Source: Hydrogenophaga sp.
GTDB taxonomy: Bacteria > Pseudomonadota > Gammaproteobacteria > Burkholderiales > Burkholderiaceae_C
Direction of reading: 5' to 3'
NCBI RefSeq assembly: GCF_019635465.1
Contig: NZ_JAHBZK010000004.1
Coordinates: forward strand, 1 to 64,000
Length of the DNA stretch: 64,000 bases
A model generated the notes under the pieces. The model did no database searches, was not told the origin of the DNA, and was given only the letters and a program-made list of their open reading frames with translations. A program made the position numbers and the translations under genes. Every line of letters begins with the position of its first letter. Position 1 is the stretch's first letter. This document shows, in pieces, positions 44,337 through 60,966 of the stretch.

Positions 44337-45179
44337 TCAGGCGCCCTGCGGGCGTCGGGATTCCTCCAGCAACAGTTGTGCCGCCACCGAGGCGGCGATC
44401 ACGGCCGGGGCTTTGCCCACGATGCCAGGCATGCCGATCGGGCAGGTCACCCGCGCCAGCAACGGCTCGTCGTATCCGCGCGCCTCGAGCCGGTGCCGAA
44501 AGCTCGCCCATTTGGTGCGGCTGCCGATCAGCCCGATCAGGCCCAGGTCATCGTGCGCGCGCACACGGCTGAGGCAGGCGGCCACGATGTCGAGATCTTC
44601 GGCGTGCGAAAAACTCATGATCAGCACGTGCGAGCCCGGGGTCAGCGTCGCCACTGCGCCCTGTACCGGCGCGGAGTGCTCGGCAATCACGTTGGGGGGC
44701 AGCGGCTGGGGAAACACCTCATCGCGGCTATCCACCCAGGTCAGCGCGAACGGCAGCGGCGCCAAGGCTTGCACGATGGCATGACCCACATGGCCACCGC
44801 CAAACAGCGCCACGGGCGTGGCCATGGACGCCAGCCGGGCCGCCAGCCCGTCCACCGACGCTGCATCCACCCATTCGTAACGCAATGTCACGGCGCCCCC
44901 GCAGCATTGACCCAGCGAAGGACCAAGCGTGACCGATTGCACATCTGTTCCAGCCGTGCGTCGCGACAGCAGTGTGCGGGCGCGGCTTATCGCGTTCCAT
45001 TCGAGCTGTCCGCCGCCGATGGTGCCCAGCGCACCGTGTTCGAACACCGCCATCCAGGTGCCTGCCTCCCGAGGCACCGACCCGCGAGACTCGATCACCG
45101 TGACCAGCACCGCCGGCGCCTCGCGCAGACGGCATAGAAAAGTATGCAGTTCAGGCGAGGCCTGTGGCGCCGACGACAT
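44337..45179 (-). CDS. xdhC: Xanthine dehydrogenase accessory protein XdhC
   Basis: XdhC inserts the sulfurated molybdenum cofactor into xanthine dehydrogenase. The 280 residues have the N-terminal VTVIESRGSVPREAGTWM and GTIGGGQLEWNAI, the paired Cys in GQCCGGAVTL, and the C-terminal Rossmann part LFGGGHVGHAIVQALAPLP and LIGLIGSRTKWASF. No xdhA or xdhB is in the window, so the catalytic subunits must lie elsewhere. Its location next to puuD supports purine catabolism. Confidence 0.92.
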   Translation of the reverse strand: MSSAPQASPELHTFLCRLREAPAVLVTVIESRGSVPREAGTWMAVFEHGALGTIGGGQLEWNAISRARTLLSRRTAGTDVQSVTLGPSLGQCCGGAVTLRYEWVDAASVDGLAARLASMATPVALFGGGHVGHAIVQALAPLPFALTWVDSRDEVFPQPLPPNVIAEHSAPVQGAVATLTPGSHVLIMSFSHAEDLDIVAACLSRVRAHDDLGLIGLIGSRTKWASFRHRLEARGYDEPLLARVTCPIGMPGIVGKAPAVIAASVAAQLLLEESRRPQGA

Positions 45180-45325
45180 GGAAGCTGTATGGATCTGTAA
45201 GAGGACTCAAGCGCCGTGAGTATCGACCGAAGCGACAGATGCACTGTGCGAAACCGCACATACACTGCATCCGCCGCGCGGTATGGCACCCCGGGGCACC
45301 GACCGACCTACTCGAGACGACGAGC

Positions 45326-45883
45326 ATGACGACACGAGACATCCCACCCGCACCGCGGCCAGAAGGCGCCGCGAGCCGACTCCAGGCCCTGCGCTGGACC
45401 GGCGTGACCATTGCCGCGCTGCTGGCCGCTTGTGCCGCGCCGCTGCCACCCCCGCCGCCGCCACCGCCCCCACCACCGCCCATGCCCGCTCCCCCCCCGT
45501 CCAAACCGGTGAGCCGCGCGCCCGCGCCCAAGGACATTTCCGAGGCCGCCTCGCCGCTCGAGTACCGCAAGGACGGCGCACGCCACATCTATGCCCAGAA
45601 CGGCAGCCGCATCTACAAAGGCAAGCTGCCGCCACTGCTGCACGCGGTGGGCGTGCTGCAGGTCGACGTGGACGACCGCGGCAACGTACAGAAGATGAAC
45701 TGGATGCGCGCGCCCAGCCACGCACCCGACGTCATGCGCGAAATCGAACGCACCGTGCGCGCCGCATCGCCCTTCCCCGCGCCTGTGCGCATGGGCCACG
45801 TCACCTACACCGACGTCTGGCTCTGGGACAAGAGCGGCAACTTCCAGCTCGACACGTTGACCGAGGGTCAGCGCAGCAAATGA
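45326..45883 (+). CDS. Proline-rich lipoprotein with TonB-like C-terminus
   Basis: This 185-residue protein has a signal peptide with lipobox L-A-A-C (Cys near residue 36: LRWTGVTIAALLAACAAP), an uninterrupted run of 12 prolines just after it, and a C-terminal domain with LLHAVGVLQVDVDDRGNV and VRAASPFPAPVRMG that resembles TonB C-terminal/energy-transducer domains. The start ATG 45326 was chosen because it begins the signal peptide; the frame is open upstream. A strong terminator follows. Function unknown; I see no link to the purine genes around it. Confidence 0.7.
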   Translation: MTTRDIPPAPRPEGAASRLQALRWTGVTIAALLAACAAPLPPPPPPPPPPPPMPAPPPSKPVSRAPAPKDISEAASPLEYRKDGARHIYAQNGSRIYKGKLPPLLHAVGVLQVDVDDRGNVQKMNWMRAPSHAPDVMREIERTVRAASPFPAPVRMGHVTYTDVWLWDKSGNFQLDTLTEGQRSK

Positions 45884-45905
45884 TCTCCAGGGGGTTGAAT
45901 GTTTG

Positions 45906-45933
45906 GGCCCGCTTCGGCGGGCCTTTCTTTTTT
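45906..45933 (+). terminator. Intrinsic terminator after the proline-rich lipoprotein
   Basis: GGCCCGC (45906-45912) and GCGGGCC (45917-45923) form a perfect stem with a TTCG tetraloop, followed by TTTCTTTTTT (45924-45933). It ends the plus-strand lipoprotein gene and overlaps the region just past the hiuH stop. Confidence 0.9.
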
Positions 45934-45935
45934 CC

Positions 45936-46289
45936 TCAGCTGCCGCGGTAGGTTGAGTAGCTCCAGGGGCTGACCAGCAGGGGCACGTGGTAGTGCTGCT
46001 CGGTATTGGCGATACCGAAGTCCAGCGCCACCCGGTCCAGGAACCGGGGTTCCGGCAGCGCCACGCCACGTGCGTCGAAATAGTCCTTCACGTCAAAGAG
46101 CAGCCGGTAGGTGCCCTGTTTGAGCGACGCGTTGTCGAGCAGCACGCCGTCGGGATTGCGCCCGTCGGCGTTGAGCACAAAGCGCTTGATCAGCGTCGCT
46201 TCATCACCATTGGTGCGAAACAGCGCCACTTGCATGCCCTCGGCAGGGCAGCCGTGCATCGTGTCCAGAACGTGGGTACTCAGGCCCAT
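45936..46289 (-). CDS. hiuH: 5-hydroxyisourate hydrolase
   Basis: HiuH (transthyretin-like) hydrolyses 5-hydroxyisourate to OHCU, the step after PuuD. The 117 residues start MGLSTHVLDTMHGCPAEGM with the catalytic His, contain Arg in LNADGRNPDGVLL, HYHVPLLVSPWSYSTY and end in the family hallmark YRGS. It diverges from the GntR regulator with a 65-base gap that contains two palindromes. The next enzyme, UraD, is encoded in the fusion downstream on the other strand. Confidence 0.95.
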   Translation of the reverse strand: MGLSTHVLDTMHGCPAEGMQVALFRTNGDEATLIKRFVLNADGRNPDGVLLDNASLKQGTYRLLFDVKDYFDARGVALPEPRFLDRVALDFGIANTEQHYHVPLLVSPWSYSTYRGS

Positions 46290-46307
46290 GGCGCCATCCT
46301 CTTCAAG

Positions 46308-46332
46308 TTTCAGTCGACTGAAAGTGTATACA
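46308..46332. promoter_or_regulatory. Two palindromes between hiuH and the GntR gene
   Basis: TTTCAGTCGACTGAAA (46308-46323) is a perfect 16-base palindrome. It is followed by TGTATACA (46325-46332), a perfect 8-base palindrome of the type bound by FadR-group GntR regulators. They lie in the middle of the 65-base divergent promoter region, where a bound regulator could block both genes. TGTATACA recurs upstream of the first transporter operon. Confidence 0.6.
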
Positions 46333-46354
46333 GTTTGAGTCGATTCTGGCTATC

Positions 46355-47032
46355 ATGCCGCGCATGGAAACCTCCAGCACGGCCCAGATCGTCGAGTCAC
46401 TGACCCGGGCCATCGTCGAACACCGCCTGCGCCCCGGCACCAAGCTGGCCGAGCAGAAACTGGCCGACCATTTCGGCGTGTCACGCACCCTGGTCAGGCA
46501 AGCGCTGTTCCAGCTGTCGCAGAACCGGCTGATCAAACTGGAGCCCGCCAGAGGCGCGTTTGTCGCCACGCCGTCCGCCGACGAGGCCCGACAGGTGTTT
46601 CACGTGCGGCGCATGCTCGAACTCGAAATGACCCGCACCTTTGCGCGCCAGGCCACCGTCCCCATGCTGCGTGCGCTTCGCGAGCACATCGCGCAGGAGC
46701 GCGCTGCGGTGGACCAGCAGGACGTGCCCGGGCGCACCGAGCTGCTGGGCGACTTTCACGTGCGCATCGCCGAACTGCTGGGCAACCAGGTGCTGGCCGA
46801 CCTGTTGCGCGACCTGATCTCGCGCTGCGCCCTCATCACGCTGATGTACCAGTCCAGCGAAGCCGCCGCCGACTCCAGCGATGAGCACACCACCATCGTC
46901 AAGGCCCTGGCGGCACGCGATGAGGCGCTGGCGGTCAGGCTCATGGAACAACACCTGCTTCATGTCGAAGCGGGCCTGGCCTTTGATCGCAAGGCGCCCG
47001 CCAACGATCTGTCTCTTGCCCTCGCGCCCTGA
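46355..47032 (+). CDS. GntR-family (FCD) transcriptional regulator
   Basis: The 225 residues contain an N-terminal winged helix (LAEQKLADHFGVSRTLVRQA, then LSQNRLIKLEPARGAFVA) and a C-terminal all-helical FCD ligand-binding domain (LGDFHVRIAELLGNQVLAD, then DEHTTIVKALAARDEALAV). The His/Asp spacing fits metal-assisted acid binding in FCD proteins. It diverges from hiuH and precedes puuE by 28 bases, so it is a likely local regulator of urate/allantoin catabolism. The ligand is not readable; a ureide or purine is a reasonable guess. Confidence 0.88.
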   Translation: MPRMETSSTAQIVESLTRAIVEHRLRPGTKLAEQKLADHFGVSRTLVRQALFQLSQNRLIKLEPARGAFVATPSADEARQVFHVRRMLELEMTRTFARQATVPMLRALREHIAQERAAVDQQDVPGRTELLGDFHVRIAELLGNQVLADLLRDLISRCALITLMYQSSEAAADSSDEHTTIVKALAARDEALAVRLMEQHLLHVEAGLAFDRKAPANDLSLALAP

Positions 47033-47059
47033 CGGCGCCATTGCAGTGCCCACCACGCC

Positions 47060-48007
47060 ATGACCTACGACGCCACAGCCCCCTACCCGCGCGATCTGCG
47101 CGGCCACGGCCGCAACCCACCTCACGCCCGCTGGCCCGGCGGTGCACACATCGCCGTGCAGTTCGTGCTCAACCACGAAGAGGGCGGCGAGAACAGCGTG
47201 CTGCACGGTGACGACGCCTCCGAGCAGTTTCTGTCCGAGATGTTCAACCCCGCGGCCTACCCCGCGCGGCACATGAGCATGGAAGGCATCTACGAATACG
47301 GCTCGCGTGCGGGGGTCTGGCGCATCCTGCGCGAGTTCGAGCGCCGCGGCCTACCTTTGACCATCTTTGGCGTGGCCAGCGCCCTGCAGCGCTGCCCGGA
47401 CATCACCGCCGCGTTCGTCGAACTCGGCCACGAGATCGCCTGCCACGGACTCAAGTGGATCCACTACCAGAACGTGGACGAGGCCACCGAGCGCGCCCAC
47501 ATGGCCGAGGCCATGCAAATCATCAGCACCCTCACCGGCCAGCGCCCGCTGGGCTGGTACACCGGCCGCGACAGCCCCAACACGCACCGCCTGGTGGCCG
47601 ATTTCGGTGGTTTCGAGTACGACGCCGACTATTACGGCGACGACCTGCCCTTCTGGATGAAGCTGCACAAGAGCGATGGCAGCGTGGCACACCAGCTGAT
47701 CGTGCCCTACACGCTCGACTGCAACGACATGCGCTTTGCACTGCCGCAGGGCTACTCGCACGCCGACCCGTTCTTCCAGTACCTCAAGGACAGTTTCGAC
47801 GTGCTGTACGCCGAGGGCGACCCGAACGGGCTGGACCGGCCCAGGATGATGAGCATTGGCATGCACAGCCGCCTGCTGGGGCGCCCAGGCCGCATCACCG
47901 CGCTGCAGCGCTTCCTGGACCACATCCAGTCGCACGACAAGGTGTGGATCACGCGCCGGCTCGACATCGCGCGCCACTGGCGCGCCCACCACCCGCAGCC
48001 GGAGTGA
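47060..48007 (+). CDS. puuE: Allantoinase PuuE
   Basis: PuuE is the polysaccharide-deacetylase-fold allantoinase, not metal-dependent AllB, and opens allantoin to allantoate. The 315 residues start TYDATAPYPRDLRGHGRNPP and contain FVLNHEEGGENSVLHGD, GHEIACHGLKWIHYQNVDEA and PLGWYTGRDSPNTHRL, all typical of PuuE. It follows the GntR gene and is four bases from the uraD-allC fusion, so these probably form one operon. Confidence 0.95.
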   Translation: MTYDATAPYPRDLRGHGRNPPHARWPGGAHIAVQFVLNHEEGGENSVLHGDDASEQFLSEMFNPAAYPARHMSMEGIYEYGSRAGVWRILREFERRGLPLTIFGVASALQRCPDITAAFVELGHEIACHGLKWIHYQNVDEATERAHMAEAMQIISTLTGQRPLGWYTGRDSPNTHRLVADFGGFEYDADYYGDDLPFWMKLHKSDGSVAHQLIVPYTLDCNDMRFALPQGYSHADPFFQYLKDSFDVLYAEGDPNGLDRPRMMSIGMHSRLLGRPGRITALQRFLDHIQSHDKVWITRRLDIARHWRAHHPQPE

Positions 48008-48011
48008 CGCC

Positions 48012-49793
48012 ATGGCTCTCACCCTCGATCAACTCAACAGCGCCAGCGTCGCCGAAGCGGTGCAACTGCTCGACGGCCTGTACGAGCATTCCCCCTGGGT
48101 GGCGGAACGCGCCATGGCGCAGCGCCCGTTTGCGACGCTCGCCGCCCTCAAATGGGCCCTGGTGACCACACTGGCCGCGGCCTCGCGCGGCGAGCAGCTG
48201 GGTCTCATCCGCGCTCACCCCGAACTGGCCGGCAAGGCCATGGTCGCGAAGTCGCTGACCGCCGAGAGCACTGGCGAACAAAGCCGCGCCGGCCTGACCA
48301 ACTGCACCCCTGAAGAGTTCGCGCTGCTGCAACGCCTCAACACCGACTACAACGCGCGCTTCGGCTTTCCGTTCATCCTCGCGGTGCGCGGCCCGCGCGG
48401 CAGCGGCCTGTCGCGCCAGCAGATCATTGCGACCTTCGAGCGTCGGCTGCACAACCCCATTGACTTCGAGCGCGAAGAGGCACTGCGCAACATCCACCGC
48501 ATTGCCGAAGTGCGACTGGCCGACAAGTTCAACGCCGAGCCCGCGCTGGGCCACCGCGTGTGGGATTGGCACGAAGACCTCGCACGCCACAGCGACCCCG
48601 GTTTCAAGGAGCAAGGCCAGCTCACGGTGACCTACCTCACCGAGGCCCACCTGGCCTGCCAGCGCGACCTGATGGCGCAGATGACCGCGCTGGGATTTGA
48701 CGAGGTGAGCCGCGACGCGGTGGGCAACATCGTGGGCGTGTACCACGGCAGCGATCCCACCGCGCCGCGATTGCTCACCGGCAGCCACTACGACACCGTA
48801 CGTAACGGTGGCAAGTACGACGGGCGCCTTGGCATCTTCGTGCCCATGGCCTGCGTGGAGCGACTGCACCAGGCCGGTCGCCGCCTGCCGTTCGGCATCG
48901 AGGTGGTGGCCTTCGCCGAAGAGGAAGGCCAGCGATACAAGGCCACCTTCCTTGGCTCGGGCGCGCTCACCGGTCACTTCAACCCCGACTGGCTCGCGCA
49001 GACCGACGCCGATGGCGTGAGCATGGTTGACGCGATGCGCAGCGCCGGCCTGCCGGCATCGCTCGACGCCATCCATGCCATCCAGCGCGACCCATCGCGC
49101 TACCTGGGCTTCATCGAGGTCCACATCGAGCAGGGGCCGGTGCTCAACGAGATGGGCCTGCCCCTGGGCGTGGTGACCTCCATCAACGCCAGCGTGCGCC
49201 ACGTGGGCGAAGTCATCGGCATGGCCAGCCATGCGGGCACCACGCCCATGGACCGGCGTCGCGACGCGGCCTGCGCCGTGGCCGAACTGGCCTTGTATTG
49301 CGAACGACGCGCCACACAGGACGGCGATTCGGTGGCCACCATCGGCCTGCTCAACGTACCGGGTGGTTCGATCAACGTGGTGCCTGGCCGCTGCACTTTT
49401 TCGCTCGACCTGCGCGCTCCGCTCGACGCGCAGCGCGATGCGCTGGAGCGCGACGTGTTGTCTGAACTCCAGGCCATCTGCGAGCGCCGTGGCCTGGCCG
49501 TGAAGCTGGAGAAAACCATGGCCGCGTCGGCAGCGCCGAGTGCGCCCGAGTGGCAGGCCCGTTGGGAGCGTGCAGTGGCCGCACTCGGCCTGCCCGCGCA
49601 CCGCATGCCCAGCGGCGCCGGCCACGACGCCATGAAGCTGCACGAGGTGATGCCGCAAGCCATGCTCTTCGTGCGTGGCGAGAACAGCGGCATCAGCCAC
49701 AACCCGCTGGAGAGCAGCACCAGCGACGACATCGAACTGTGCGTGCTCGCCTTCGAGCACGTCCTGAACCAACTGGCGAACGAGACCCCATGA
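48012..49793 (+). CDS. Fusion: OHCU decarboxylase (UraD) and allantoate amidohydrolase (AllC)
   Basis: This single 593-residue protein joins two steps of the ureide pathway. Residues 1 to about 170 are UraD, with the catalytic His near 69 (LIRAHPELAGKAM) and NARFGFPFILAVRG. From about 175 onward is an M20-type allantoate amidohydrolase with LLTGSHYDTVRNGGKYDGRL, VVAFAEEEGQRYKATFLGS, EVHIEQGPVLNE and GISHNPLE supplying metal ligands. The intermediate steps (allantoin opening by PuuE) lie between these two activities, so the fusion does not join adjacent reactions. The stop overlaps the next gene. Confidence 0.93.
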   Translation: MALTLDQLNSASVAEAVQLLDGLYEHSPWVAERAMAQRPFATLAALKWALVTTLAAASRGEQLGLIRAHPELAGKAMVAKSLTAESTGEQSRAGLTNCTPEEFALLQRLNTDYNARFGFPFILAVRGPRGSGLSRQQIIATFERRLHNPIDFEREEALRNIHRIAEVRLADKFNAEPALGHRVWDWHEDLARHSDPGFKEQGQLTVTYLTEAHLACQRDLMAQMTALGFDEVSRDAVGNIVGVYHGSDPTAPRLLTGSHYDTVRNGGKYDGRLGIFVPMACVERLHQAGRRLPFGIEVVAFAEEEGQRYKATFLGSGALTGHFNPDWLAQTDADGVSMVDAMRSAGLPASLDAIHAIQRDPSRYLGFIEVHIEQGPVLNEMGLPLGVVTSINASVRHVGEVIGMASHAGTTPMDRRRDAACAVAELALYCERRATQDGDSVATIGLLNVPGGSINVVPGRCTFSLDLRAPLDAQRDALERDVLSELQAICERRGLAVKLEKTMAASAAPSAPEWQARWERAVAALGLPAHRMPSGAGHDAMKLHEVMPQAMLFVRGENSGISHNPLESSTSDDIELCVLAFEHVLNQLANETP

Positions 49794-51046
49794 CCATGAC
49801 CCCCTACCAGACCCTCGACGCCTGGATCGACGCGCATTTCGACGAGCAGCTGGCGTTTCTGCAGCAACTGGTGCGTGTACCCACCGACACACCACCCGGC
49901 AACAACGCGCCGCATGCCGAGCGCACAGCCGAGTTGCTGGCGGCCATGGGCATGACCGCAGAGAAGCACGCTGTGCCCGCGGCCGACGTACAGGCCGCGG
50001 GCCTGCAAAGCATCACCAACCTGATCGTGCGTCGCCGCTTTGGCGATAGCGGCCCTGTCGTCGCCCTCAACGCCCACGGCGACGTGGTGCCGCCCGGCGA
50101 AGGCTGGACACACGACCCCTACGGCGGCGAGATCGTCGATGGCGCCATGTATGGCCGCGCCACCGCCGTCAGCAAAAGCGACTTCTCCAGCTTCACCTTC
50201 GCCTTGCGGGCGATCGAGGCGCTGGGTCTGCCGCTCAAGGGTGGTGTGGAACTGCACTTCACCTACGACGAGGAGTTCGGCGGCGAGCTGGGCCCGGGCT
50301 GGTTGCTCGACAAAGGCCTCACCCGCCCCGATCTGATGATCGCGGCCGGCTTCAGCTACCAGGTGGTCGTGGCGCACAACGGCTGCCTGCAGCTGGAAGT
50401 GACGGTGCAAGGCGAGATGGCGCATGCCGCCATACCCGACAGCGGCACCGATGCGCTGCAAGGCGCCACGCACATCCTCAACGCGCTGTACGCGCTCAAC
50501 CGCGACTACCAGCAGGTGCGCTCCGAGGTCGAGGGCATCACCCACCCCTACCTCAACATCGGCCTCATCCAGGGCGGCACCAACACCAACGTCATCCCCG
50601 GCAAGGTGGTCATCAAGCTCGACCGGCGCATGATCCCCGAGGAGGACCCCGCACAGGTGGAGGCCGATCTGCGCGCCACCATCGAGCGTGCCGCGGCCAG
50701 CTACAACCCGCCGCGCGGCGGCAAAGCCCTGCAGGTGCAGGTGCGCCGAATGCTGCTGGCCCGCGCCATGCGGCCGCTACCCGGCAACGCGCCGCTGGTG
50801 AAGGCGCTGCAGACCCACGCGAGCGAGCTCTTCGGTGAATCCGTGCCCGCGGTGGGCACACCGCTCTACACCGATGTGCGCCTGTACGTTGAACGCGGCA
50901 TCCCGGGTGTGATCTATGGCGCAGGCCCCCGCACCGTGCGCGAGTCCAACGCCAAGCGCGCCGACGAGCACGTGCGCCTTGACGACCTGCGCCGCGCCAC
51001 CAAAGTGGTGGCCCGCACGCTGTTCGATCTGCTTTCCATGGGCTGA
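49790..51046 (+). CDS. M20-family metal-dependent amidohydrolase/deacylase
   Basis: This 418-residue protein is related to ArgE/DapE peptidases. Metal ligands are visible in ALNAHGDVVPPG, YDEEFGGELG and the C-terminal AGPRTVRESNAKRADEHV region; the usual D-M-K-G loop reads AVSKSDFSSF, a known variant. It starts inside the uraD-allC stop (ATGA), with a second ATG at 49796. Its place suggests it acts on a ureide or N-carbamoyl product such as ureidoglycolate or a related amide, but this is inference; it is not clearly any named enzyme. Confidence 0.8.
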   Translation: MTMTPYQTLDAWIDAHFDEQLAFLQQLVRVPTDTPPGNNAPHAERTAELLAAMGMTAEKHAVPAADVQAAGLQSITNLIVRRRFGDSGPVVALNAHGDVVPPGEGWTHDPYGGEIVDGAMYGRATAVSKSDFSSFTFALRAIEALGLPLKGGVELHFTYDEEFGGELGPGWLLDKGLTRPDLMIAAGFSYQVVVAHNGCLQLEVTVQGEMAHAAIPDSGTDALQGATHILNALYALNRDYQQVRSEVEGITHPYLNIGLIQGGTNTNVIPGKVVIKLDRRMIPEEDPAQVEADLRATIERAAASYNPPRGGKALQVQVRRMLLARAMRPLPGNAPLVKALQTHASELFGESVPAVGTPLYTDVRLYVERGIPGVIYGAGPRTVRESNAKRADEHVRLDDLRRATKVVARTLFDLLSMG

Positions 51047-51120
51047 TACCCCAACACGGGTCGGCGCGCCCGGTGCCAGAATCGTCCGGGCAAGGCCACA
51101 CAACCAGACAGGAGACCACC

Positions 51121-53397
<2,277 letters not shown>

Positions 53398-53684
53398 GCA
53401 CCCATAGGGCTTCCCCGCGGTGGCGGCATGCACCACCGCGGGTAAAAAGCGAACCGAAACGGTGCGCACAGCACTGTGACCGTGCACCGTTTCAGGGTAT
53501 GTCAGGATGACCGCCCCAACCCCCGTACGGACAATGTGTATACACATTCGGTGTGCAAAACACGAACCACGGTCCGGCATACCCCTGCCCGGTACTGGCA
53601 CCGATGTTGCTAACTCAGTTGCCGTACGCCGCAACGACGGCGATGCCTCGCCGACCTTCAACACCCGCCAGCCCTGGAGAAACC
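53398..53684. other. Intergenic region maeB to the first NMT1 gene
   Basis: These 287 bases contain two large inverted repeats and one operator-like palindrome. CCCGCGGTGG (53414-53423) pairs with CCACCGCGGG (53433-53442) just after maeB; no T-run follows. GAAACGGTGC (53456-53465) pairs with GCACCGTTTC (53484-53493). The palindrome at 53533-53548 is listed separately. No gene is seen. Confidence 0.6.
53533..53548. promoter_or_regulatory. Perfect palindrome AATGTGTATACACATT, candidate GntR operator
   Basis: A 16-base perfect palindrome lies 137 bases upstream of the first NMT1 binding-protein gene. Its TGTATACA core (53537-53544) is identical to the palindrome next to the local GntR regulator gene at 46325-46332. 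This suggests the same protein regulates both promoters. The larger symmetric arms here would be the stronger site. Confidence 0.6.
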
Positions 53685-54719
53685 ATGATCAAACGCCGTT
53701 TCCTGCAGACCACCGCCGCGCTGGCCGCGGTTGCCGCCTTCTCGGGCGTTGCGCACGCGCAGACCCCCATCAAGTTCCAGCTCGACTGGCGCTTCGAAGG
53801 CCCCGCCGCCCTGTTCCTGCACCCCGCCGCCAAGGGCTATTTCAAGCAGGCTGGTCTGGACGTGACGGTGGACTCGGGCAACGGCTCGGGCGGCACCGTC
53901 ACCCGCGTGGCCTCCGGCACCTATGACATGGGCTTTGCCGACATGGCCGCCCTGATGGAGTTCCACGCCAACAACCCCGACGCACCGAACAAGCCGGTCG
54001 CGGTGATGATGGTCTACAACAACACGCCGGCCGCGGTGCTCGCGCTCAAGAAGAGCGGCATCACCAAGCCCGCTGACCTGGAAGGCAAGAAGCTCGGCGC
54101 GCCGGTGTTCGATGCCGGCCGCAAGGGCTTCCCGATTTTCCAGAAGGCCAACAACATCAACAACGTGGCCTGGACCTCGATGGACCCGCCGCTGCGCGAG
54201 ACCATGCTGGTTCGTGGCGACATCGAAGCCATCACCGGCTTCTCGTTCACCTCGCTGCTCAACCTCGAAGCGCGTGGCGTCAAGGCCGAAGACATCGTCA
54301 TCCTGCCCTACGCCGACTACGGCGTGAAGCTGTACGGCAACGCCATCATTGCCTCGCCCAAACTCATCGCTGAGAACCCGGCCGCCGTCAAAGCCTTCCT
54401 CACCGCCTTCGCCAAGGGTGCCAAGGAAGTCATGGCTAATCCGGCCGTGGCGATCGAGTCGGTCAAGGCGCGCGACGGCATCATCAACGTCGGCCTCGAA
54501 ACGCGCCGCCTGGCGCTGGCCGTGGACGCCGTGGTGGCCAGCCCGGACGCCCGCAAGGAAGGCTTCGGCCAGGTCGTGCCGGGGCGCCTGGCGCTGATGG
54601 CTTCGCAAGTCTCCGACGCCTACAACACCAAGACCCGCGTCGACCCGACCAAGATCTGGAACGGCTCGATGCTGCCCAGCGCCGCCGAGCTCAACGTGCT
54701 GCCGCCGGCCAAGAAGTAA
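53685..54719 (+). CDS. NMT1/SsuA-type ABC transporter substrate-binding protein (copy 1)
   Basis: The 344-residue periplasmic protein has a signal peptide (MIKRRFLQTTAALAAVAAFS, cleaved near AHA-Q) and the NMT1/THI5 fold (IKFQLDWRFEGPAALFLHPA, then KGYFKQAGLDVTVDSGNGSG). It belongs to the family that binds pyrimidine- or purine-like ligands. GGAGA precedes the ATG. It heads an operon with an ATPase, permease and deaminase; a terminator-like hairpin after it probably makes it the most abundant subunit. It is clearly paralogous to the gene at 58530 (shared NLYGNAI-like and VRGD motifs). Confidence 0.9.
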   Translation: MIKRRFLQTTAALAAVAAFSGVAHAQTPIKFQLDWRFEGPAALFLHPAAKGYFKQAGLDVTVDSGNGSGGTVTRVASGTYDMGFADMAALMEFHANNPDAPNKPVAVMMVYNNTPAAVLALKKSGITKPADLEGKKLGAPVFDAGRKGFPIFQKANNINNVAWTSMDPPLRETMLVRGDIEAITGFSFTSLLNLEARGVKAEDIVILPYADYGVKLYGNAIIASPKLIAENPAAVKAFLTAFAKGAKEVMANPAVAIESVKARDGIINVGLETRRLALAVDAVVASPDARKEGFGQVVPGRLALMASQVSDAYNTKTRVDPTKIWNGSMLPSAAELNVLPPAKK

Positions 54720-54750
54720 CGGCCCGCGCCCGCCACGATGTCAGCGACGA

Positions 54751-54784
54751 GGCCAGCTGCCCACCGGTAGCTGGCCTTTCTTTC
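54751..54784 (+). terminator. Partial terminator after the first NMT1 gene
   Basis: GGCCAGCT (54751-54758) pairs with AGCTGGCC (54769-54776), with a 10-base loop and TTTCTTTC after. It lies between the binding-protein gene and the ATPase gene of the same operon, a common arrangement that lowers expression of the downstream membrane components. Confidence 0.75.
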
Positions 54785-54795
54785 AAGGGACGCCC

Positions 54796-55632
54796 ATGAA
54801 CACCCCCACCGCCGCCGCCGACGACGCGTTTGTCGATTTCGACGAAGTCTGGCTGGCCTACAACGAAGAGTTGCTCGCGAAGAATGTCTTCGCGGTCGAG
54901 GACATCAACCTCAAGGTCAAGCGGGGCGAGTTCATCGCCATCGTCGGGCCGTCGGGTTGCGGCAAGTCCACCTTCATGAAGCTGACCACCGGCCTGAAGA
55001 TGCCGAGCATGGGCAGGATCCGCATTGACGGCCAACCCGTGACTGGCCCCTTGAAGATCTCGGGCATGGCGTTTCAGGCGCCGTCGCTGCTGCCCTGGCG
55101 CACCACCATCGACAACGTGCTGCTACCGCTGGAGATCGTCGAACCCTTCCGCCAGCAGTTCAAGGACCGCAAGCGCGAGTTCGAAGAGCGCGCGAAGAAG
55201 TTGCTGGCCAGCGTGGGGCTGGGCGGCATGGAGAACAAATTTCCCTGGGAGCTCTCGGGCGGCATGCAGCAACGCGCCAGCATCTGCCGCGCGCTCATCC
55301 ACGAGCCCAAGATGCTGCTGCTCGACGAGCCCTTCGGCGCGCTCGACGCTTTCACCCGCGAAGAGCTGTGGTGCACGCTGCGCGACCTGTGGGAGGCGCA
55401 GCGCTTCAATGTCATCCTGGTCACGCACGACCTGCGCGAATCGGTCTTCCTGGCCGACACGGTGTACTGCATGAGCCGCAGCCCCGGGCGCTTCGTGGTG
55501 CGCCGCGAGATCGAGATCCCGCGCACGCGCGAGCTTGAAGTGACCTACACCCGCGAGTTCAGCGACATCGTGCACGAGCTGCGGGGCCACATCGGCGCCA
55601 TGCGCCAGAGCGGCATGGTCATCAATCAGTGA
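54796..55632 (+). CDS. ABC transporter ATPase, nitrate/taurine/NMT1 type
   Basis: The 278 residues have Walker A GPSGCGKSTFMKLTTGL, the Q-loop FQAPSLLPWRTTIDNV, the signature LSGGMQQRASICRAL, Walker B MLLLDEPFGALDAFTRE and the H-loop LVTHDLRES. This matches the SsuB/TauB-type ATPases that serve NMT1 binding proteins. The permease gene follows after 7 bases. The substrate is inferred from context to be a nucleobase or ureide. Confidence 0.93.
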   Translation: MNTPTAAADDAFVDFDEVWLAYNEELLAKNVFAVEDINLKVKRGEFIAIVGPSGCGKSTFMKLTTGLKMPSMGRIRIDGQPVTGPLKISGMAFQAPSLLPWRTTIDNVLLPLEIVEPFRQQFKDRKREFEERAKKLLASVGLGGMENKFPWELSGGMQQRASICRALIHEPKMLLLDEPFGALDAFTREELWCTLRDLWEAQRFNVILVTHDLRESVFLADTVYCMSRSPGRFVVRREIEIPRTRELEVTYTREFSDIVHELRGHIGAMRQSGMVINQ

Positions 55633-55639
55633 GGCACAC

Positions 55640-56413
55640 ATGACTGGCAAACAACGCAAGAACATCGAACGCTTCTCGCCCTGGCTGCTGCTGATCGCGA
55701 TCATCATCATCTGGGAGGTGATCACCCGTGGCTTCGGCGTCTCGGAATTCATCTTCCCCAGCCCGTCGCGCATTTGGGAACAGACGATGGAGCACCAGAC
55801 CACCATCCTGGGCCACGCCTGGCGCACCTTCTGGGTCACCATGGCCGGCTTTGGCATCGCCATCGTGGTGGGTGTGCTGCTGGGCTTTCTGATTGGCAGC
55901 TCGCGCATCGCCTACGCGGCTGTCTACCCGCTGATGACGGCCTTCAACGCCCTGCCCAAGGCGGCCTTCGTGCCGATCCTGGTGGTGTGGTTCGGCATCG
56001 GCATCGGGCCGGCCATTCTCACGGCTTTCCTGATCAGCTTCTTCCCGATCATGGTGAACATCGCCACCGGCCTCGCCACGCTCGAGCCCGAGCTGGAAGA
56101 CGTGCTGCGCGTGCTGGGTGCCAAACGCTGGGACGTGCTCACCAAGGTCGGCCTGCCGCGCTCCATGCCCTATTTCTTCGGCTCGCTCAAGGTCGCCATC
56201 ACGCTGGCCTTCGTGGGCACTACCGTGTCGGAGATGACGGCGTCGAACGAAGGCATCGGCTACCTGCTGATCTCGGCCGGCTCGTCCATGCAGATGGGCC
56301 TGGCGTTCAGTGGCCTGCTGGTGGTCGGCGCCATGGCCATGGCCATGTACGAGCTGTTCAGCTTCGTCGAGAAACACACCACGGCCTGGGCGCACAGAGG
56401 ATCACAGGGCTGA
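55640..56413 (+). CDS. ABC transporter permease, SsuC/TauC type
   Basis: The 257-residue membrane protein has about six hydrophobic segments (LLLIAIIIIWEVITRGF at the N-terminus, FWVTMAGFGIAIVVGVLLGF, MQMGLAFSGLLVVGAMAMA at the end) and the EAA-type loop for the ATPase (EPELEDVLRVLGAKRWDVL). The family is binding-protein-dependent transport inner-membrane component. The next gene starts 7 bases after its stop. Confidence 0.93.
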   Translation: MTGKQRKNIERFSPWLLLIAIIIIWEVITRGFGVSEFIFPSPSRIWEQTMEHQTTILGHAWRTFWVTMAGFGIAIVVGVLLGFLIGSSRIAYAAVYPLMTAFNALPKAAFVPILVVWFGIGIGPAILTAFLISFFPIMVNIATGLATLEPELEDVLRVLGAKRWDVLTKVGLPRSMPYFFGSLKVAITLAFVGTTVSEMTASNEGIGYLLISAGSSMQMGLAFSGLLVVGAMAMAMYELFSFVEKHTTAWAHRGSQG

Positions 56414-56420
56414 TCGCTGC

Positions 56421-56897
56421 ATGACGCCGGAACAGGTTGCGCGCCACCTGCGACGCGCCAACGATGTGGCGCGCCGGGCCGCTGCCATGGGGCGCCACCC
56501 GTTTGGTGCGCTGCTGGTAGCGCCCGATGACGAGACGGTGCTGGCCGAGCAAGGCAACATCGACACGGTCAACCACGCCGAGGCCACGCTGGCGCGACAT
56601 GCGGCCAGCACCTACCCCGGCGCCTACCTGCGCCAGTGCACGCTGGTCACCACCTTCGAGCCCTGCGCCATGTGCGCCGGCACCATCTACTGGGCCGACA
56701 TCGGGCGCGTGGTCTATGGCGCGAGCGAAGAAGCCCTGCTCGCGCTCACAGGCTCGCACGAAGAGAACCCGACGCTCTCGCTGCCGTGTCGTGAGGTGTT
56801 TGCGCGCGGGCAGCGGGCGGTCGAGGTGGTCGGGCCAGTGGCTGAACTGGTGGACGAGATGGTGGAACCGCACAAAGGGTTCTGGGCCTCTCGCTGA
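56421..56897 (+). CDS. Nucleobase deaminase-like protein, guanine-deaminase/TadA fold (copy 1)
   Basis: The 158 residues have the zinc deaminase motif H-A-E (VNHAEATLARHA) and P-C-x-x-C (FEPCAMCAGTIYWADIGRVVYG). This is the family of guanine deaminase (GuaD-like) and TadA, but with a different N-terminus (MTPEQVARHLRRAND) from TadA, and it lies in a transporter operon for purine-like molecules. Guanine or another aminopurine is the likeliest substrate; that is inference. It is paralogous to the gene at 59552. Confidence 0.85.
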   Translation: MTPEQVARHLRRANDVARRAAAMGRHPFGALLVAPDDETVLAEQGNIDTVNHAEATLARHAASTYPGAYLRQCTLVTTFEPCAMCAGTIYWADIGRVVYGASEEALLALTGSHEENPTLSLPCREVFARGQRAVEVVGPVAELVDEMVEPHKGFWASR

Positions 56898-57206
56898 GGC
56901 GATCTCCGGGGGGCTGCGGTGGGCGGCAACCGCGATGTCCGGCTCCGCTCATGTCCCCCGCGAAGGGCTGCGCCCTTCGCTCCTCCTTTACTTCGCTGCG
57001 CCGGACACCCCGATCACCGCCCACCTCGTGGCACTCGTCGGGTGTCACGCCACCATCACTTCAGCCCGCGAGTGTGGGGTGCTCCACGCAGCGACATAAA
57101 GGAGGAGGACCGGGCTCAGCCCGGTCCGGGGGACAGTCGCGGAGTGGAGTACCCCGCGATCGCGAGCGTGCGAGCCGCGATGTGCAACGAGCGAAGAGCA
57201 TCGCAA
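56898..57206. repeat. Palindromic intergenic region between deaminase copy 1 and Rieske oxygenase
   Basis: These 309 bases have no gene. They contain two long hairpins: GCGAAGGGC (56960-56968) with GCCCTTCGC (56972-56980), and GGACCGGGCT (57107-57116) with AGCCCGGTCC (57118-57127). Blocks like these look like the dispersed palindromic intergenic repeats of Comamonadaceae genomes. The convergent position of the flanking genes suggests a transcription-ending role, but no T-runs are present. Confidence 0.5.
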
Positions 57207-58226
57207 TCAGCGATGCACCTCCACCTCCCCGGCAGAGGACAACATCGCCATCAAGCGCCGCCGGATCAGGATGCCGGGCCGATCGGAATCCATCGAGTAC
57301 TCCACGCCGCGGCGGCGCAGGTCGACCACCGCGTCCGGGTCGGTGCTTTCCAGGATGTCCTTGTCCTCGCGCGTGATCTCGGCGTCAAAGTCGATCAGCA
57401 TCTGTGCCGGGCAATCCTGCTCGGTGTCGTTGCGGAACAGCCATTGGCACAACTGGATGTGGCCATCGTCGATCGGTGTGAAGCAGTTGATGATCACGTG
57501 GCGCACACCGCCCGGGTACTCGATGTCGAGCCGGCGCGAGAACGGTTGCATGTAGGCGTTGCGCATGTGGCGCTGGGTGATCGCATCCTTGACGCCGCTG
57601 ATGCGCTGAAATCGCTCGGGGTTGGCGGCGTCGATCACCGTCTCGGCGTAGAAGCCCTGCTCGTTCTCGACGATCTGATACTTGCTGGGCTTGGGTTGCG
57701 CCGCCACGCCAAAGGTGGCGCGGTGCACGAAGCTGAAGTGCGAGTTGTCGAATGAGTTCTCCAATGCACGCACCGGGCTGGTCTGCCAGGTTTCGTAGAA
57801 CTGGAAGATGGTGCGCCAGCCCGGCGCGTCGAACTCGGGCATGGTGGGGATGTCGGCTTCGGGCTCCTCCAGCGCCACCCAGGCATAGCCGTAGCGCGCT
57901 TCGCAACGGTAGGCAGGCGTGCAGTAGTCCTTGGGAATCTCACGGTCAGCGCCGTACTGCGGGATCTCGATCACGCGACCGCTGCGGTTGTAGACCCAGC
58001 CATGGTAGCCGCACTGCAGGTTGCCGTTCTTGCACCAGCCCTTGCTGAGTTTGGCGGTGCGGTGGCAGCAGCGGTCCTTGAGCGCGGCAGGCGCGCCGTG
58101 CTCGTCGAGGAAGAGGACGATGGCCTCGCCGAGCAGCGTGAAGGGTTTGGGGCCGTCCTGCAGTTCCGTCAGTGGCATGACGGCGTGCCAGTGGCGGCGA
58201 AAGACGGCTTGTTGGGAGACGAGCAT
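57207..58226 (-). CDS. Rieske-type ring-hydroxylating oxygenase, alpha-subunit-like
   Basis: The 339 residues have an N-terminal Rieske domain with ligands in CCHRTAKLSKG and LQCGYHGWVYNRSG, and a C-terminal mononuclear iron domain with the His-x4-His motif FDNSHFSFVHRATFG. This fits the vanillate-demethylase/dicamba-type single-component oxygenases. AGGAG is eight bases before the ATG. Its leader carries a xanthine-riboswitch-like RNA, and it diverges from a purine-type binding protein, so a purine or ureide substrate is plausible. The exact reaction is not known. Confidence 0.85.
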   Translation of the reverse strand: MLVSQQAVFRRHWHAVMPLTELQDGPKPFTLLGEAIVLFLDEHGAPAALKDRCCHRTAKLSKGWCKNGNLQCGYHGWVYNRSGRVIEIPQYGADREIPKDYCTPAYRCEARYGYAWVALEEPEADIPTMPEFDAPGWRTIFQFYETWQTSPVRALENSFDNSHFSFVHRATFGVAAQPKPSKYQIVENEQGFYAETVIDAANPERFQRISGVKDAITQRHMRNAYMQPFSRRLDIEYPGGVRHVIINCFTPIDDGHIQLCQWLFRNDTEQDCPAQMLIDFDAEITREDKDILESTDPDAVVDLRRRGVEYSMDSDRPGILIRRRLMAMLSSAGEVEVHR

Positions 58227-58269
58227 GGGGAAGCACTCCTGATGGAAACGGCTTGAACGTGGGGCTCAA

Positions 58270-58314
58270 GAGCAATTTCCTGCCCACCCTGGCGGTGGTT
58301 GAACGCTTCTACTC
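58270..58314 (-). ncRNA. NMT1-motif (xanthine) riboswitch candidate, leader of the Rieske gene
   Basis: Reading the minus strand: GAGTAGAAGCGTTCA, a hairpin CCACC-loop-GGTGG (plus-strand positions 58298-58294 and 58288-58284), then GGAAATTGCTC. P1 pairs GAGUAG with UUGCUC; AAGCGUUCA and GGAAA form the internal loop around P2. Both flanks are identical to the copy at 58420-58467, while P2 has different bases that still pair. This fits my recollection of the NMT1 motif, which senses xanthine and urate. It ends 43 bases before the ATG. Confidence 0.8.
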
Positions 58315-58419
58315 TCGCGCAGGAATGTAGCAAAACCAGGGCCACGCCGGTGTGCATCCCGTCGCCGCACCACAAGCGTGCAGCGCCGCTGGCACGGCTC
58401 CTGCGTCAGCGTTGCGCAG

Positions 58420-58467
58420 GAGTAGAAGCGTTCAGCGTCCCCGCAGTGGGACGCCCGGAAATTGCTC
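58420..58467 (+). ncRNA. NMT1-motif (xanthine) riboswitch candidate, leader of NMT1 gene copy 2
   Basis: GAGTAGAAGCGTTCA (58420-58434) is followed by hairpin GCGTCCC (58435-58441), loop CGCAGT, GGGACGC (58448-58454), then CC and GGAAATTGCTC (58457-58467). P1 pairs GAGUAG with UUGCUC, including two G-U pairs, and the internal loop is AAGCGUUCA opposite GGAAA. Downstream is an NMT1-domain protein, the gene type that gave the motif its name. The RNA ends 62 bases before the ATG, so control by direct masking of the ribosome-binding site would need an extended structure. Confidence 0.85.
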
Positions 58468-58529
58468 TGTCGATACCGACGCCGAACCAACGGCGCCGGA
58501 CCGTTCAAGGCACACACCGGAGACCCGCC

Positions 58530-59555
58530 ATGCAGCGCCGCCGCTTCCTCGTTCAATCCATCGCAACGTCCGCCGCCCTGTGCGCGCCCGCCATCTGGGC
58601 GCAAGGCAGCCCCAGGCTGCAACCCCTGAAGTTCACCCTCGACTTTCGCGTCACAGGCCAGACCTCGCCCTTCTTTCTGGCCCAGCAGCGCGGCTACTAC
58701 GCGGCCGAAGGTCTGGACGTGAGCATCGACGTCGGCTCGGGCTCGGTCGCTTCGATCACGCGCATCGTCAGCGGCGCCTACCAGATGGGCCTGGGCGACA
58801 TCAGCTCGCTCATCGAGTTTCAGTCGGTCAATGGCGGCACGCCGGCGGTGCAGGCCGTGTACCAGTACTACAACCGCGCGCCCTTCGCCATCATCGGCCG
58901 CAAGGACCGCGGCATCACCGATTTCAAGAGCCTGCAGGGCAAGAAGGTGGCCGCCGCCGCCGTGGAGTCGACCCGTCGTGCCTGGCCCATGGTGGCGCGC
59001 AAGCTGCGCGTCGAGGACGGCTATTTCCAGTGGTCCACCACCGACTTCTCCGCACGCGACAACGTCATGGTGCGTGGCGACGTGGACGCGGCCACCTACT
59101 TCCACGACTCGGCCGTGTCGCTGTTCGCGCGCATGAAGCCCGAGGAGCTGACGGTGCTCAAGTACACCGACGCGGGCGTGAACCTGTATGGCAACGCCAT
59201 CCTCGCCAGCAACGCCATGATCACGCAGAACCCAAATGCGGTCGCCGGCTTCCTGCGCGCCACCAACCGCGCCATTCAGGACGCATTCGCCGACCCGGCC
59301 GCGGCGATTGCCGCCACCAAGGCACGCGAGTCCATCCTCAACGAGGCGGTCGAGCTGGAACGCTGGCGCATCACGCGCGAGTACATCGCCGCCGCCGACA
59401 CGCGCAGCCATGGCCTGGGCGATGTGCTCAAGCGCACGCTGGAACAACAGGTCGACGAGGTGAGCGAGGTGTTCAAGCTCAAACTCAAACCGGGTGTGGA
59501 AGGTGTCTTCAACCGCGCCTTCCTGCCGGCCGCCAGCGAGCGCAGGGTGGCATGA
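58530..59555 (+). CDS. NMT1/SsuA-type substrate-binding protein (copy 2)
   Basis: The 341-residue protein starts MQRRRFLVQSIATSAALCAP with a twin-arginine-like signal peptide, then the NMT1 fold (LKFTLDFRVTGQTSPFFLAQ, then RGYYAAEGLDVSIDVGSGS). It shares NLYGNAILAS and VRGDVDAA with copy 1 at 53685. GGAG is upstream. No permease or ATPase follows, so it either uses the transporter encoded at 54796-56413 or another one. Its leader carries an NMT1-motif riboswitch. It overlaps the deaminase start (ATGA). Confidence 0.9.
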   Translation: MQRRRFLVQSIATSAALCAPAIWAQGSPRLQPLKFTLDFRVTGQTSPFFLAQQRGYYAAEGLDVSIDVGSGSVASITRIVSGAYQMGLGDISSLIEFQSVNGGTPAVQAVYQYYNRAPFAIIGRKDRGITDFKSLQGKKVAAAAVESTRRAWPMVARKLRVEDGYFQWSTTDFSARDNVMVRGDVDAATYFHDSAVSLFARMKPEELTVLKYTDAGVNLYGNAILASNAMITQNPNAVAGFLRATNRAIQDAFADPAAAIAATKARESILNEAVELERWRITREYIAAADTRSHGLGDVLKRTLEQQVDEVSEVFKLKLKPGVEGVFNRAFLPAASERRVA

Positions 59556-60058
59556 GCAAGGAGCTGCTTGACGAAGTCGCGCTCGATGAGCGTGACGGGC
59601 GCTACCTGCGCCAGGCCATCGCCTGGTCGCAGGTGGCCCGCGATCGCGGCAACCGGCCGTTCGGTGCGGTGGTGATCGGCGAGGACGGTGCGGTGCTCGC
59701 CGAGGCCTGGTGCAACACCACCGAAACCGGTGACTGCACCGGCCACGCAGAAACCACCGCGGTGCGCCAGCTGGGCAACCGCTTTGCGCGTGACACACTG
59801 GCCCGCGCCACGCTGTACTCCTCGGCCGAGCCCTGCGTCATGTGCGCGGGCGCCATCTTCTGGAGCGCGATCGGGCGGGTGGTCTACGGCATCGACGCGG
59901 TACGCCTGCGCGACTTCCGGGGCGAGCGCACCGAGCAACGCGATGCCGAGCTGTCGTGCCGCGACGTGTTCGCCGCCTCACCGCACCCAATCGACTGCAT
60001 CGGCCCCGCGCTCATCGACGAGGCCAGCGAGGCGCACCGGGGGTTCTGGAAAACGTGA
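59552..60058 (+). CDS. Nucleobase deaminase-like protein, guanine-deaminase/TadA fold (copy 2)
   Basis: The 168 residues have the zinc site H-A-E (CTGHAETTAVRQLG) and P-C-x-x-C (SAEPCVMCAGAIFWSAIGRVVYG), closely matching copy 1 at 56421. It starts inside the stop of the binding-protein gene, so both belong to one transcript under the riboswitch. A guanine- or other aminopurine-deaminase role giving xanthine or related products would fit feedback by a xanthine-sensing RNA. This is inference. Confidence 0.85.
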   Translation: MSKELLDEVALDERDGRYLRQAIAWSQVARDRGNRPFGAVVIGEDGAVLAEAWCNTTETGDCTGHAETTAVRQLGNRFARDTLARATLYSSAEPCVMCAGAIFWSAIGRVVYGIDAVRLRDFRGERTEQRDAELSCRDVFAASPHPIDCIGPALIDEASEAHRGFWKT

Positions 60059-60135
60059 GCGCGTGCCTTCAGCAGGGCGAGCCGGACTGTCCGAATGTGG
60101 CTGCGGCCCAGGGGCGTGCACCTACACTCGCGCCC

Positions 60136-60966
60136 ATGCCCTGGCACGCTCACCTGCACCTGCACTACCAGTCCAATGCGGACAAGACCACGCTGCAGTT
60201 CCGCCACGACGGGCCGCTGCGCATCCTCAAGAGCCTTTACCCCGAAGGGCCTCGCGTCTGCCACAACGTGGTCGTGCACCCACCGGGCGGCCTGGTGGGC
60301 GGTGATGTGCTCGACATCGATGTGCAGGTCGATGCCGGCGCGCACGCGCTGATCAGCACACCCGGCGCCACCCGCTTCTACCGCAGCGACGGACCACAGG
60401 CCGCGCAGCAGGTGCAACTGCATCTGGCGCCCGGTGCGCGTTTGGAATGGCTTCCGCTGGAGACCATCGCCTACCCCGAATGCAATGCGCGCAATCAGCT
60501 GTCCATGACCCTGGACGACGATGCCGAATGCCTGGGCTGGGATGTCACCGCACTGGGTCTGCCCGCCGCCGACCAGGCCTTCGAGCGCGGCGTATTGCAG
60601 CAACAGGTGCAATGGCCCGGCGTGTGGCTGGAGCGCGCGCGCATCGACGCCAGTGACACCCGGCTGCTCGATGGCCCGGTCGGCCTGGCGGGCCAACGCG
60701 CCATGGGCACCTTGTGGCTGGCCAGTGGCACACCGCGCGACGACGCCACACGCGAGCGGCTGCTGGACGTCGCGCGCGACGCCCTGGGCGCGCCCGATGG
60801 CGTGGTCCACGCCGGCGCCACCAGCCCCGATGCGCGACTGGTGCTGGTGCGCGCGCTGGCGCCGCAGGTTGAGCCGCTGATGCAGGCGCTGCAGCGCGTC
60901 TGGGCCGCCTGGCGGGCCGCGGCATGGGCCATGGGCCAGCAGCCGCCGCGCATCTGGCGGGTGTAA
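60136..60966 (+). CDS. ureD: Urease accessory protein UreD
   Basis: UreD (UreH) binds urease apoprotein with UreF and UreG during nickel insertion. The 276 residues contain the family blocks VVVHPPGGLVGGDVLDIDV, LISTPGATRFYRSDG and ARLEWLPLETIAYP. It follows deaminase copy 2 by 77 bases. No ureABC, ureE, ureF or ureG gene is in the window; the next gene is unrelated, so ureD appears to be split from the urease operon, unlike the common ureD-ureABC order. Confidence 0.92.
   Translation: MPWHAHLHLHYQSNADKTTLQFRHDGPLRILKSLYPEGPRVCHNVVVHPPGGLVGGDVLDIDVQVDAGAHALISTPGATRFYRSDGPQAAQQVQLHLAPGARLEWLPLETIAYPECNARNQLSMTLDDDAECLGWDVTALGLPAADQAFERGVLQQQVQWPGVWLERARIDASDTRLLDGPVGLAGQRAMGTLWLASGTPRDDATRERLLDVARDALGAPDGVVHAGATSPDARLVLVRALAPQVEPLMQALQRVWAAWRAAAWAMGQQPPRIWRV

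Follow-up and report, generated by a model that had tools for sequence, protein, structure and literature searches.

The closest described systems to the locus studied here are the xanthine riboswitches of Rfam family RF03054 (xanthine riboswitch, NMT1 RNA; gathering cut-off 36 bits), a class that was found by Yu and Breaker (2020; PMC7373994) to bind xanthine and urate. According to that paper, the targets of the class include NMT1, hcaE-type dioxygenase and tadA genes, the dioxygenases are related to hpxD/hpxE, and the substrates of the two oxygenase families are called not established. The legend of its Fig. 5A mentions adjacent NMT1 motifs in opposing orientations in Hydrogenophaga intermedia S1. 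An E. coli reporter assay with the 'right-most' H. intermedia motif led the authors to call the class an OFF switch: the mutant M4, which carries a change in J1 equivalent to that of a mutant shown to lose ligand binding, was expressed above the wild type in both LB and M9. The main text of the paper reports no titration of ligand in cells, and the class-wide direction of regulation rests there on one mutant without added ligand. Searching the open-access literature by title or start of the abstract retrieved no report of the ON direction.

The window analyzed in this study, a 64-kb stretch of Hydrogenophaga DNA, contains two RF03054 matches within a 303-nt intergenic region (58227-58529). The aptamer on the minus strand (58265..58319; 51.5 bits, E = 1.6e-8) points toward a Rieske oxygenase gene starting at 58226, and the aptamer on the plus strand (58415..58472; 52.5 bits, E = 8.3e-9) toward a gene for an NMT1-family protein starting at 58530. 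Both arms align to the full model (positions 1-56) and score above the gathering cut-off with the P1/J1/P2a/J2/P2b architecture; the E-values, obtained over the 64-kb window, indicate that the matches are not due to chance. In the plus arm, GAGTAGAAGCGTTCA (58421-58435) is followed by the hairpin GCGTCCC/GGGACGC and by GGAAATTGCTC (58457-58467). The minus arm has identical flanks (58314-58300 and 58281-58271), which enclose CCACC/GGTGG, and a repeat search returned two inverted-repeat pairs that span the flank stretches of both arms. The pocket letters G10, C11, G35, A39 and U40, as judged by comparison with the crystallized construct and the mutants described in PMC8266621, are present. Each aptamer lies in the 5'-leader context typical of RF03054, that is, upstream of NMT1, dioxygenase or deaminase genes in Proteobacteria. 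An earlier note on this DNA, which was made from the letters alone, had correctly described the shared flanks, the differing hairpins and the outward orientation between a Rieske oxygenase and an NMT1 gene, and its assignment to the NMT1 motif was confirmed by the Rfam model, a check that it had named beforehand. Its interval for the elements (58270..58467) is slightly narrower than the full Rfam matches. Judging from sequence, we are almost certain that these are two genuine xanthine riboswitches. Both aptamers are ordinary RNA for their class, and by analogy with the binding shown for the class (PMC7373994) both arms would be expected to sense xanthine and urate. They are the only RF03054 copies in the assembly (3.9 Mb, 29 contigs, 88% complete), and a permissive scan of positions 46000-60500 (E up to 5) revealed no third copy. 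The 95-nt spacer between the aptamers (58320..58414) would hold both promoters, provided that both transcripts start there; neither a consensus match to sigma-70 promoters (spacer included) nor a terminator-like site was detected in 58100-58600.

The gene on the minus strand (57207..58226) encodes a 339-aa Rieske [2Fe-2S] oxygenase with a VanA_C domain (Pfam; PDB search), whose nearest solved relatives by sequence in the PDB search are SxtT, SxtDIOX, NdmA and NdmB. The plus strand encodes an NMT1/THI5-like substrate-binding protein (58530..59555; 341 aa, PF09084), the start of which is backed by relatives aligning full-length from residue 1, and, in an overlapping gene, a deaminase of the cytidine-deaminase fold (59552..60058; 168 aa, PF00383) with PDB matches to CMP/dCMP, tRNA-adenosine, guanine and guanosine deaminases. 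A urate/allantoin cluster (44337-49793), located 8.5-14 kb left of the riboswitch pair, comprises XdhC and hydroxyisourate hydrolase on the minus strand as well as a GntR/FCD regulator, the allantoinase PuuE and an ORF with UraD and allantoate-amidohydrolase domains on the plus strand. These neighboring genes fit the purine-gene and NMT1 context described in the earlier note. The cluster itself has no RF03054 match, as the reported pair represents the only matches in the window. Since XdhB and the guanine deaminase GuaD are also found in the genome, above their cut-offs, conversion of xanthine to urate probably does not depend on the Rieske enzyme alone. The region 53688-56897 (plus strand) encodes another NMT1 binding protein, an ABC ATPase, a permease and a second deaminase, and has no detectable riboswitch. 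Neither an ABC ATPase nor a permease gene was observed next to the NMT1 gene under riboswitch control, the product of which may therefore share the 53688-56897 transporter.

RF03054 matches were detected in 56 of 299 genomes sampled from the family of the window, 34 of which possess a divergent pair with 59-305 nt between the aptamers; convergent pairs within 1 kb were found in none of the 299 family genomes. Draws from the order (399 genomes) and the phylum (398 genomes) yielded matches in 17 genomes each, which overlap with the family draw, and added three pairs among 16 further genomes. Named loci of Rieske relatives were taken from the best 80 of 498 relatives. In 46 of these 80 loci the aptamer precedes the Rieske gene, 32 of the 46 have a divergent partner, and an NMT1 gene lies on the opposite strand in all 32; the nearest named relatives within this set are from Hydrogenophaga. 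In H. intermedia S1 (L108), the only pair of the genome is located between Rieske and NMT1 genes, the products of which share 91% and 87% identity, respectively, with those of the window. The gene opposite NMT1 in the only pair of this strain is a Rieske oxygenase gene, and a second NMT1-like gene (34% identical) follows the first. The novelty that the earlier note implied for the opposed pair is not supported, as the founding paper (PMC7373994) already mentions such a pair in H. intermedia S1 and the layout is common in the family (34/56).

The oxygenase in the divergent slot belongs to one of two families. Across the 37 pairs, NMT1 is combined with an Fe(II)/2-oxoglutarate (2OG) oxygenase in 26 and with a Rieske oxygenase in nine; one pair joins a deaminase and a 2OG oxygenase, and one has no assigned genes. 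The 2OG oxygenases contain the domains DIOX_N and 2OG-FeII_Oxy (three members scanned), and thymine dioxygenase is the nearest solved relative of the one member searched. Among the 34 paired family genomes, the oxygenase arm is Rieske in nine and 2OG in 25. We searched these 34 whole genomes for both families (E ≤ 1e-60): the nine Rieske-pair genomes contain the close Rieske family (in G041 as two pieces on two contigs) and lack the 2OG family, and the other 25 contain the 2OG family, with a Rieske match, distant at 338 bits, in G105 alone. No genome in this set has both close families. This one-or-other pattern suggests that two unrelated oxygenases do the same job and provides a concrete shared-substrate hypothesis for the two enzyme families.

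The two leaders of the window differ in length and in their Shine-Dalgarno (SD) sequences. The Rieske leader (58227..58264, minus strand; 38 nt) contains GUUUCC, the SD AGGAG and a 9-mer of SD and spacer, GAGUGCUUC, that is complementary to the pocket strand GAAGCGUUC; the NMT1 leader (58473..58529, plus strand; 57 nt) has the SD CGGAGA. In Rieske leaders around the window, SD and spacer read GAGCGCUUC, of which GAGUGCUUC is the window version, and 9-mers of the GAGCGCUUC type are a nine-base complement of GAAGCGUUC, the J1/P2a strand of the ligand pocket. All nine J1:SD pairs are possible in 21/65 Rieske leaders, 1/37 NMT1 leaders and 0/26 2OG leaders (1/63 non-Rieske), compared with a rate of 0.0015 in shuffled regions. 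The leaders around the window form a set of 23, made up of G041, L165 and the Comamonadaceae part of the Rieske tree outside the Variovorax subclade, with three duplicate names removed; 19 of these 23 have all nine pairs, with six spellings of the 9-mer, every one of which pairs. Strong complementarity (E ≤ -10) was observed for 14/46 Rieske genes that have an Rfam-scored aptamer and for 1/34 that lack one among the best 80 of 498 relatives; of these 34 loci, two (L113, L115) do possess an aptamer core, which scores under the Rfam cut-off. When the J1:SD trait was mapped on the Rieske protein tree (present in 19/63 rows; 63 of the 65 leaders, G041 and L165 being left out with translations under 250 aa), it required 7 changes versus 16.6 in shuffles. 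The trait is clustered by descent and is also kept where the remaining leader has diverged. A leader alignment of 16 rows shows 100% J1:SD pairing, but its rows were chosen for the known helix and it is illustrative; the less selected figure is the 19/23 given above. J1 is near-invariant, and the changes in the J1:SD helix are one-sided only.

In the Variovorax clade J1:SD pairing is absent, and the P1 3' strand with its tail, GCUCUUUC, pairs with the SD GAAGGAGU over 8 bp in 24/28 leaders. Two members of this clade (L137, L152) have GCUCUUUG:CAAGGAGU, a two-sided change, and two others (L128, L138) have a pairing of 7 bp. The corresponding pairing in the Rieske arm of the window is UGCUCUUGA:UCAGGAGUG. 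Matching of the tail to the letters before its own SD was examined in 92 leaders with a placed SD (52 unique combinations), a set that excludes 36 long leaders, 12 in which no SD was placed and 18 whose SD is of the GAGG type. The mean match was 2.37 of 4 versus 1.78 for permuted combinations (p < 1/4000), and it holds in Rieske (54) and short 2OG leaders (8, p = 0.009) and is not significant in the 30 NMT1 leaders (p = 0.07-0.20); p-values in the leader comparisons are inflated by the relatedness of the leaders, for which clustering by gapped identity (one to seven clusters per class) gave no usable correction. In the full 2OG set, the P1-3'/tail strand pairs with its own SD no better than with those of same-class leaders (p = 0.53). 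In the five short 2OG leaders examined, among them that at 4918-4971 of L032, the SD region can pair at -10.7 to -20.3 kcal/mol with the 3' half of the aptamer and its tail. At least four long 2OG leaders (129-167 nt; L050, L055, L057 and L062 from genomes G088, G150, G190 and G187) contain, far upstream of the SD, CTTCAAGAGC, which is complementary to the P1 3' strand plus tail and might fold into a hairpin in competition with P1. An aptamer:SD pairing of the type CCGG:CCGG, considered for the NMT1 leaders, was dropped, as no association was found (37 leaders; Fisher p = 0.25).

We compared the cost of opening the SD, alone or together with the stretch up to the AUG, between the free and the aptamer-constrained ensemble (partition function) with shuffled controls. 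The SD-alone set consisted of 128 distinct leaders of the three gene classes, without N and with duplicates removed, in which the start lies 12-170 nt from the aptamer and the SD downstream of it. From SD to AUG, the difference (free minus aptamer) was +4.58 kcal/mol for Rieske leaders (shuffled +1.16; 61/65 positive), +2.65 for NMT1 leaders (shuffled +0.32; 57/65 positive) and +2.23 for 2OG leaders (shuffled +0.56; 18/26 positive). For the SD alone it was 3.60 (shuffled 0.72; 55/65 positive), 1.38 (0.17; 27/37) and 1.70 (0.16; 19/26), respectively. The window itself gave +3.9 for the NMT1 arm from SD to AUG; its Rieske arm gave +1.1 to +1.3 from SD to AUG and -1.9 for the SD alone, and the Rieske arms of the nearest Hydrogenophaga relatives (L105-L108) ranged from 0.0 to -1.8 for the SD alone. 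The energies of the window Rieske arm are equivocal because its leader can form a UUCC:GGAG hairpin that hides the SD with the aptamer formed: in both the window and the H. intermedia Rieske leaders, GUUUCC pairs with GGAAAU when free, and UUCC with GGAG once the aptamer is in place. In the nearest-neighbor model, the bound fold lies 4.5-18.2 kcal/mol above the free one (44 leaders checked). The E. coli ribB, thiC, thiM, lysC and btuB riboswitches are OFF switches. Calibrated on these five, the SD-to-AUG measure had the right sign for ribB, thiC and thiM and the wrong one for lysC (+0.7) and btuB (+2.1), and the SD-alone measure was clearly right for thiC only.

The explanation that we favor, with somewhat more confidence than doubt, is a genuine riboswitch pair exerting translational control, in which the Rieske arm is an ON switch. 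One riboswitch heads each divergent transcript, and the likely target is translation of the Rieske gene on the minus strand and of the NMT1 and deaminase genes on the plus strand. In the absence of ligand, the SD region would be paired with the J1 strand GAAGCGUUC, with the P1 3' strand and its tail, or with both, which would close the oxygenase gene. Binding of xanthine or urate would organize J1 and close P1, so that both SD pairings would be excluded, and the oxygenase arm would in consequence switch ON. These pairings are compatible with control at translation start, and as they occupy strands needed by the ligand-bound aptamer, ligand should free the SD. The ON direction of the Rieske arm is a prediction counter to the published OFF assignment, drawn from leader comparison, and its chances appear even or slightly better. 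Evenly balanced, in our judgment, is the wider proposition that oxygenase-arm switches are ON, with pocket and P1 strands doubling as anti-SD strands, and that the published OFF direction is wrong or limited to some arms; the leaders of dozens of relatives argue against the OFF direction in oxygenase arms. The earlier note had proposed the same metabolite control for both arms, which stands as far as the shared class is concerned, but the sign of control may be wrong for the Rieske arm. If the oxygenase arm is ON, the expected role of the controlled enzymes would shift from makers of xanthine and urate to consumers of oxidized purines, and the two swapping oxygenase families would be substrate-induced enzymes of purine catabolism.

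That both arms are OFF as published, with the ligand hiding the ribosome-binding site and the genes being shut when oxidized purines are plentiful, seems the less probable reading. In its favor are the elevated expression of M4 in LB and M9 (PMC7373994) and the leader energies: the UUCC:GGAG leader hairpin is its best case at the window, where the modeled SD-only energies lean OFF (-1.9; -0.9 in H. intermedia), with the GUUUCC switch shared by both Rieske leaders. However, the main text of PMC7373994 describes this reporter result without a ligand titration in cells, an OFF design does not readily account for the conserved SD complementarity to strands of the bound aptamer, and the J1 base change of M4 would weaken the J1:SD helix of a Rieske arm, too. 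In our calculations, an A-to-U change at either adenine of J1, the kind of substitution present in the published mutant, in the H. intermedia Rieske arm lowered the SD-to-AUG cost without ligand from 10.0 to 8.0 or 6.4 kcal/mol, compared with 8.4 for the wild type with the aptamer formed, and the cost for the NMT1 arm stayed at 8.1-8.2. For the SD alone, the same change gave 3.2 to 3.2/2.2 in the H. intermedia Rieske arm, 3.3 to 3.2/3.2 in the window Rieske arm and 5.0 to 5.9 or 5.7 in the H. intermedia NMT1 arm. By the modeled SD-to-AUG energies, the ON model would therefore account for the published M4 result had the Rieske arm been assayed, but not had it been the NMT1 arm. In contig orientation, the right-hand arm of H. 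intermedia S1 is the NMT1 arm (115173-115232, plus strand), and with the 'right-most' motif having been used (PMC7373994) this points to opposed logic, a special case of the favored explanation in which the NMT1 arm is OFF and the Rieske arm ON, and one metabolite would lower uptake and deamination and raise oxidation. The J1:SD complementarity, frequent in Rieske leaders (21/65) and rare in NMT1 leaders (1/37), agrees with such a split, but the drawing in PMC7373994 may be oriented differently from the contig, and for NMT1 leaders, too, the folding energies favor ON (+2.65 versus +0.32 shuffled, with +3.9 in the window NMT1 arm), and we consider opposed logic unlikely.

A further reading, that the repeats are protein-binding DNA sites rather than RNA, could appeal to the inverted repeats surrounding the space between the two transcripts. 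It was rejected as highly improbable, since the repeats match a structure model, the hairpins pair despite their differing letters, and other genomes have solitary copies upstream of genes. The identity of the hairpins also speaks against protein sites, with 0.498 within and 0.482 between genomes (37 pairs; permutation p = 0.13). This comparison likewise gave no sign of recent duplication or gene conversion between the arms.

Compared with known systems, the pair in the window most resembles that of H. intermedia S1, which is of the same class and has the same divergent Rieske/NMT1 layout with no structural difference seen; it belongs to another species, and its published direction is OFF, where leader comparison predicts ON for the Rieske arm. 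The Ideonella construct used for crystallography (Xu et al. 2021, PMC8266621) shares GAGUAGAAGCGUUCA and CCGGAAAUUGCUC with the plus arm of the window, but differs in the sequence of its P2b stem and in its loop, which was swapped for GAAA. The minus arm of the window has an A in place of C34 of this construct, a change reported in PMC8266621 to keep wild-type-like binding. The methylxanthine demethylases NdmA and NdmB, as well as SxtT and SxtDIOX, are Rieske oxygenases like the protein encoded in the window and are distant from it (E = 8e-33 to 3e-25). The Fe(II)/2OG oxygenase, listed as 'pcbC' type in the founding paper, fills the same divergent riboswitch slot as the window enzyme in other genomes of the family, but belongs to the Pfam families 2OG-FeII_Oxy and DIOX_N and not to the Rieske type. 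The riboswitch class and its back-to-back layout are already published, and the window is a further member; the oxygenase swap and the SD complementarity in Rieske leaders go beyond what the main text of PMC7373994 describes.
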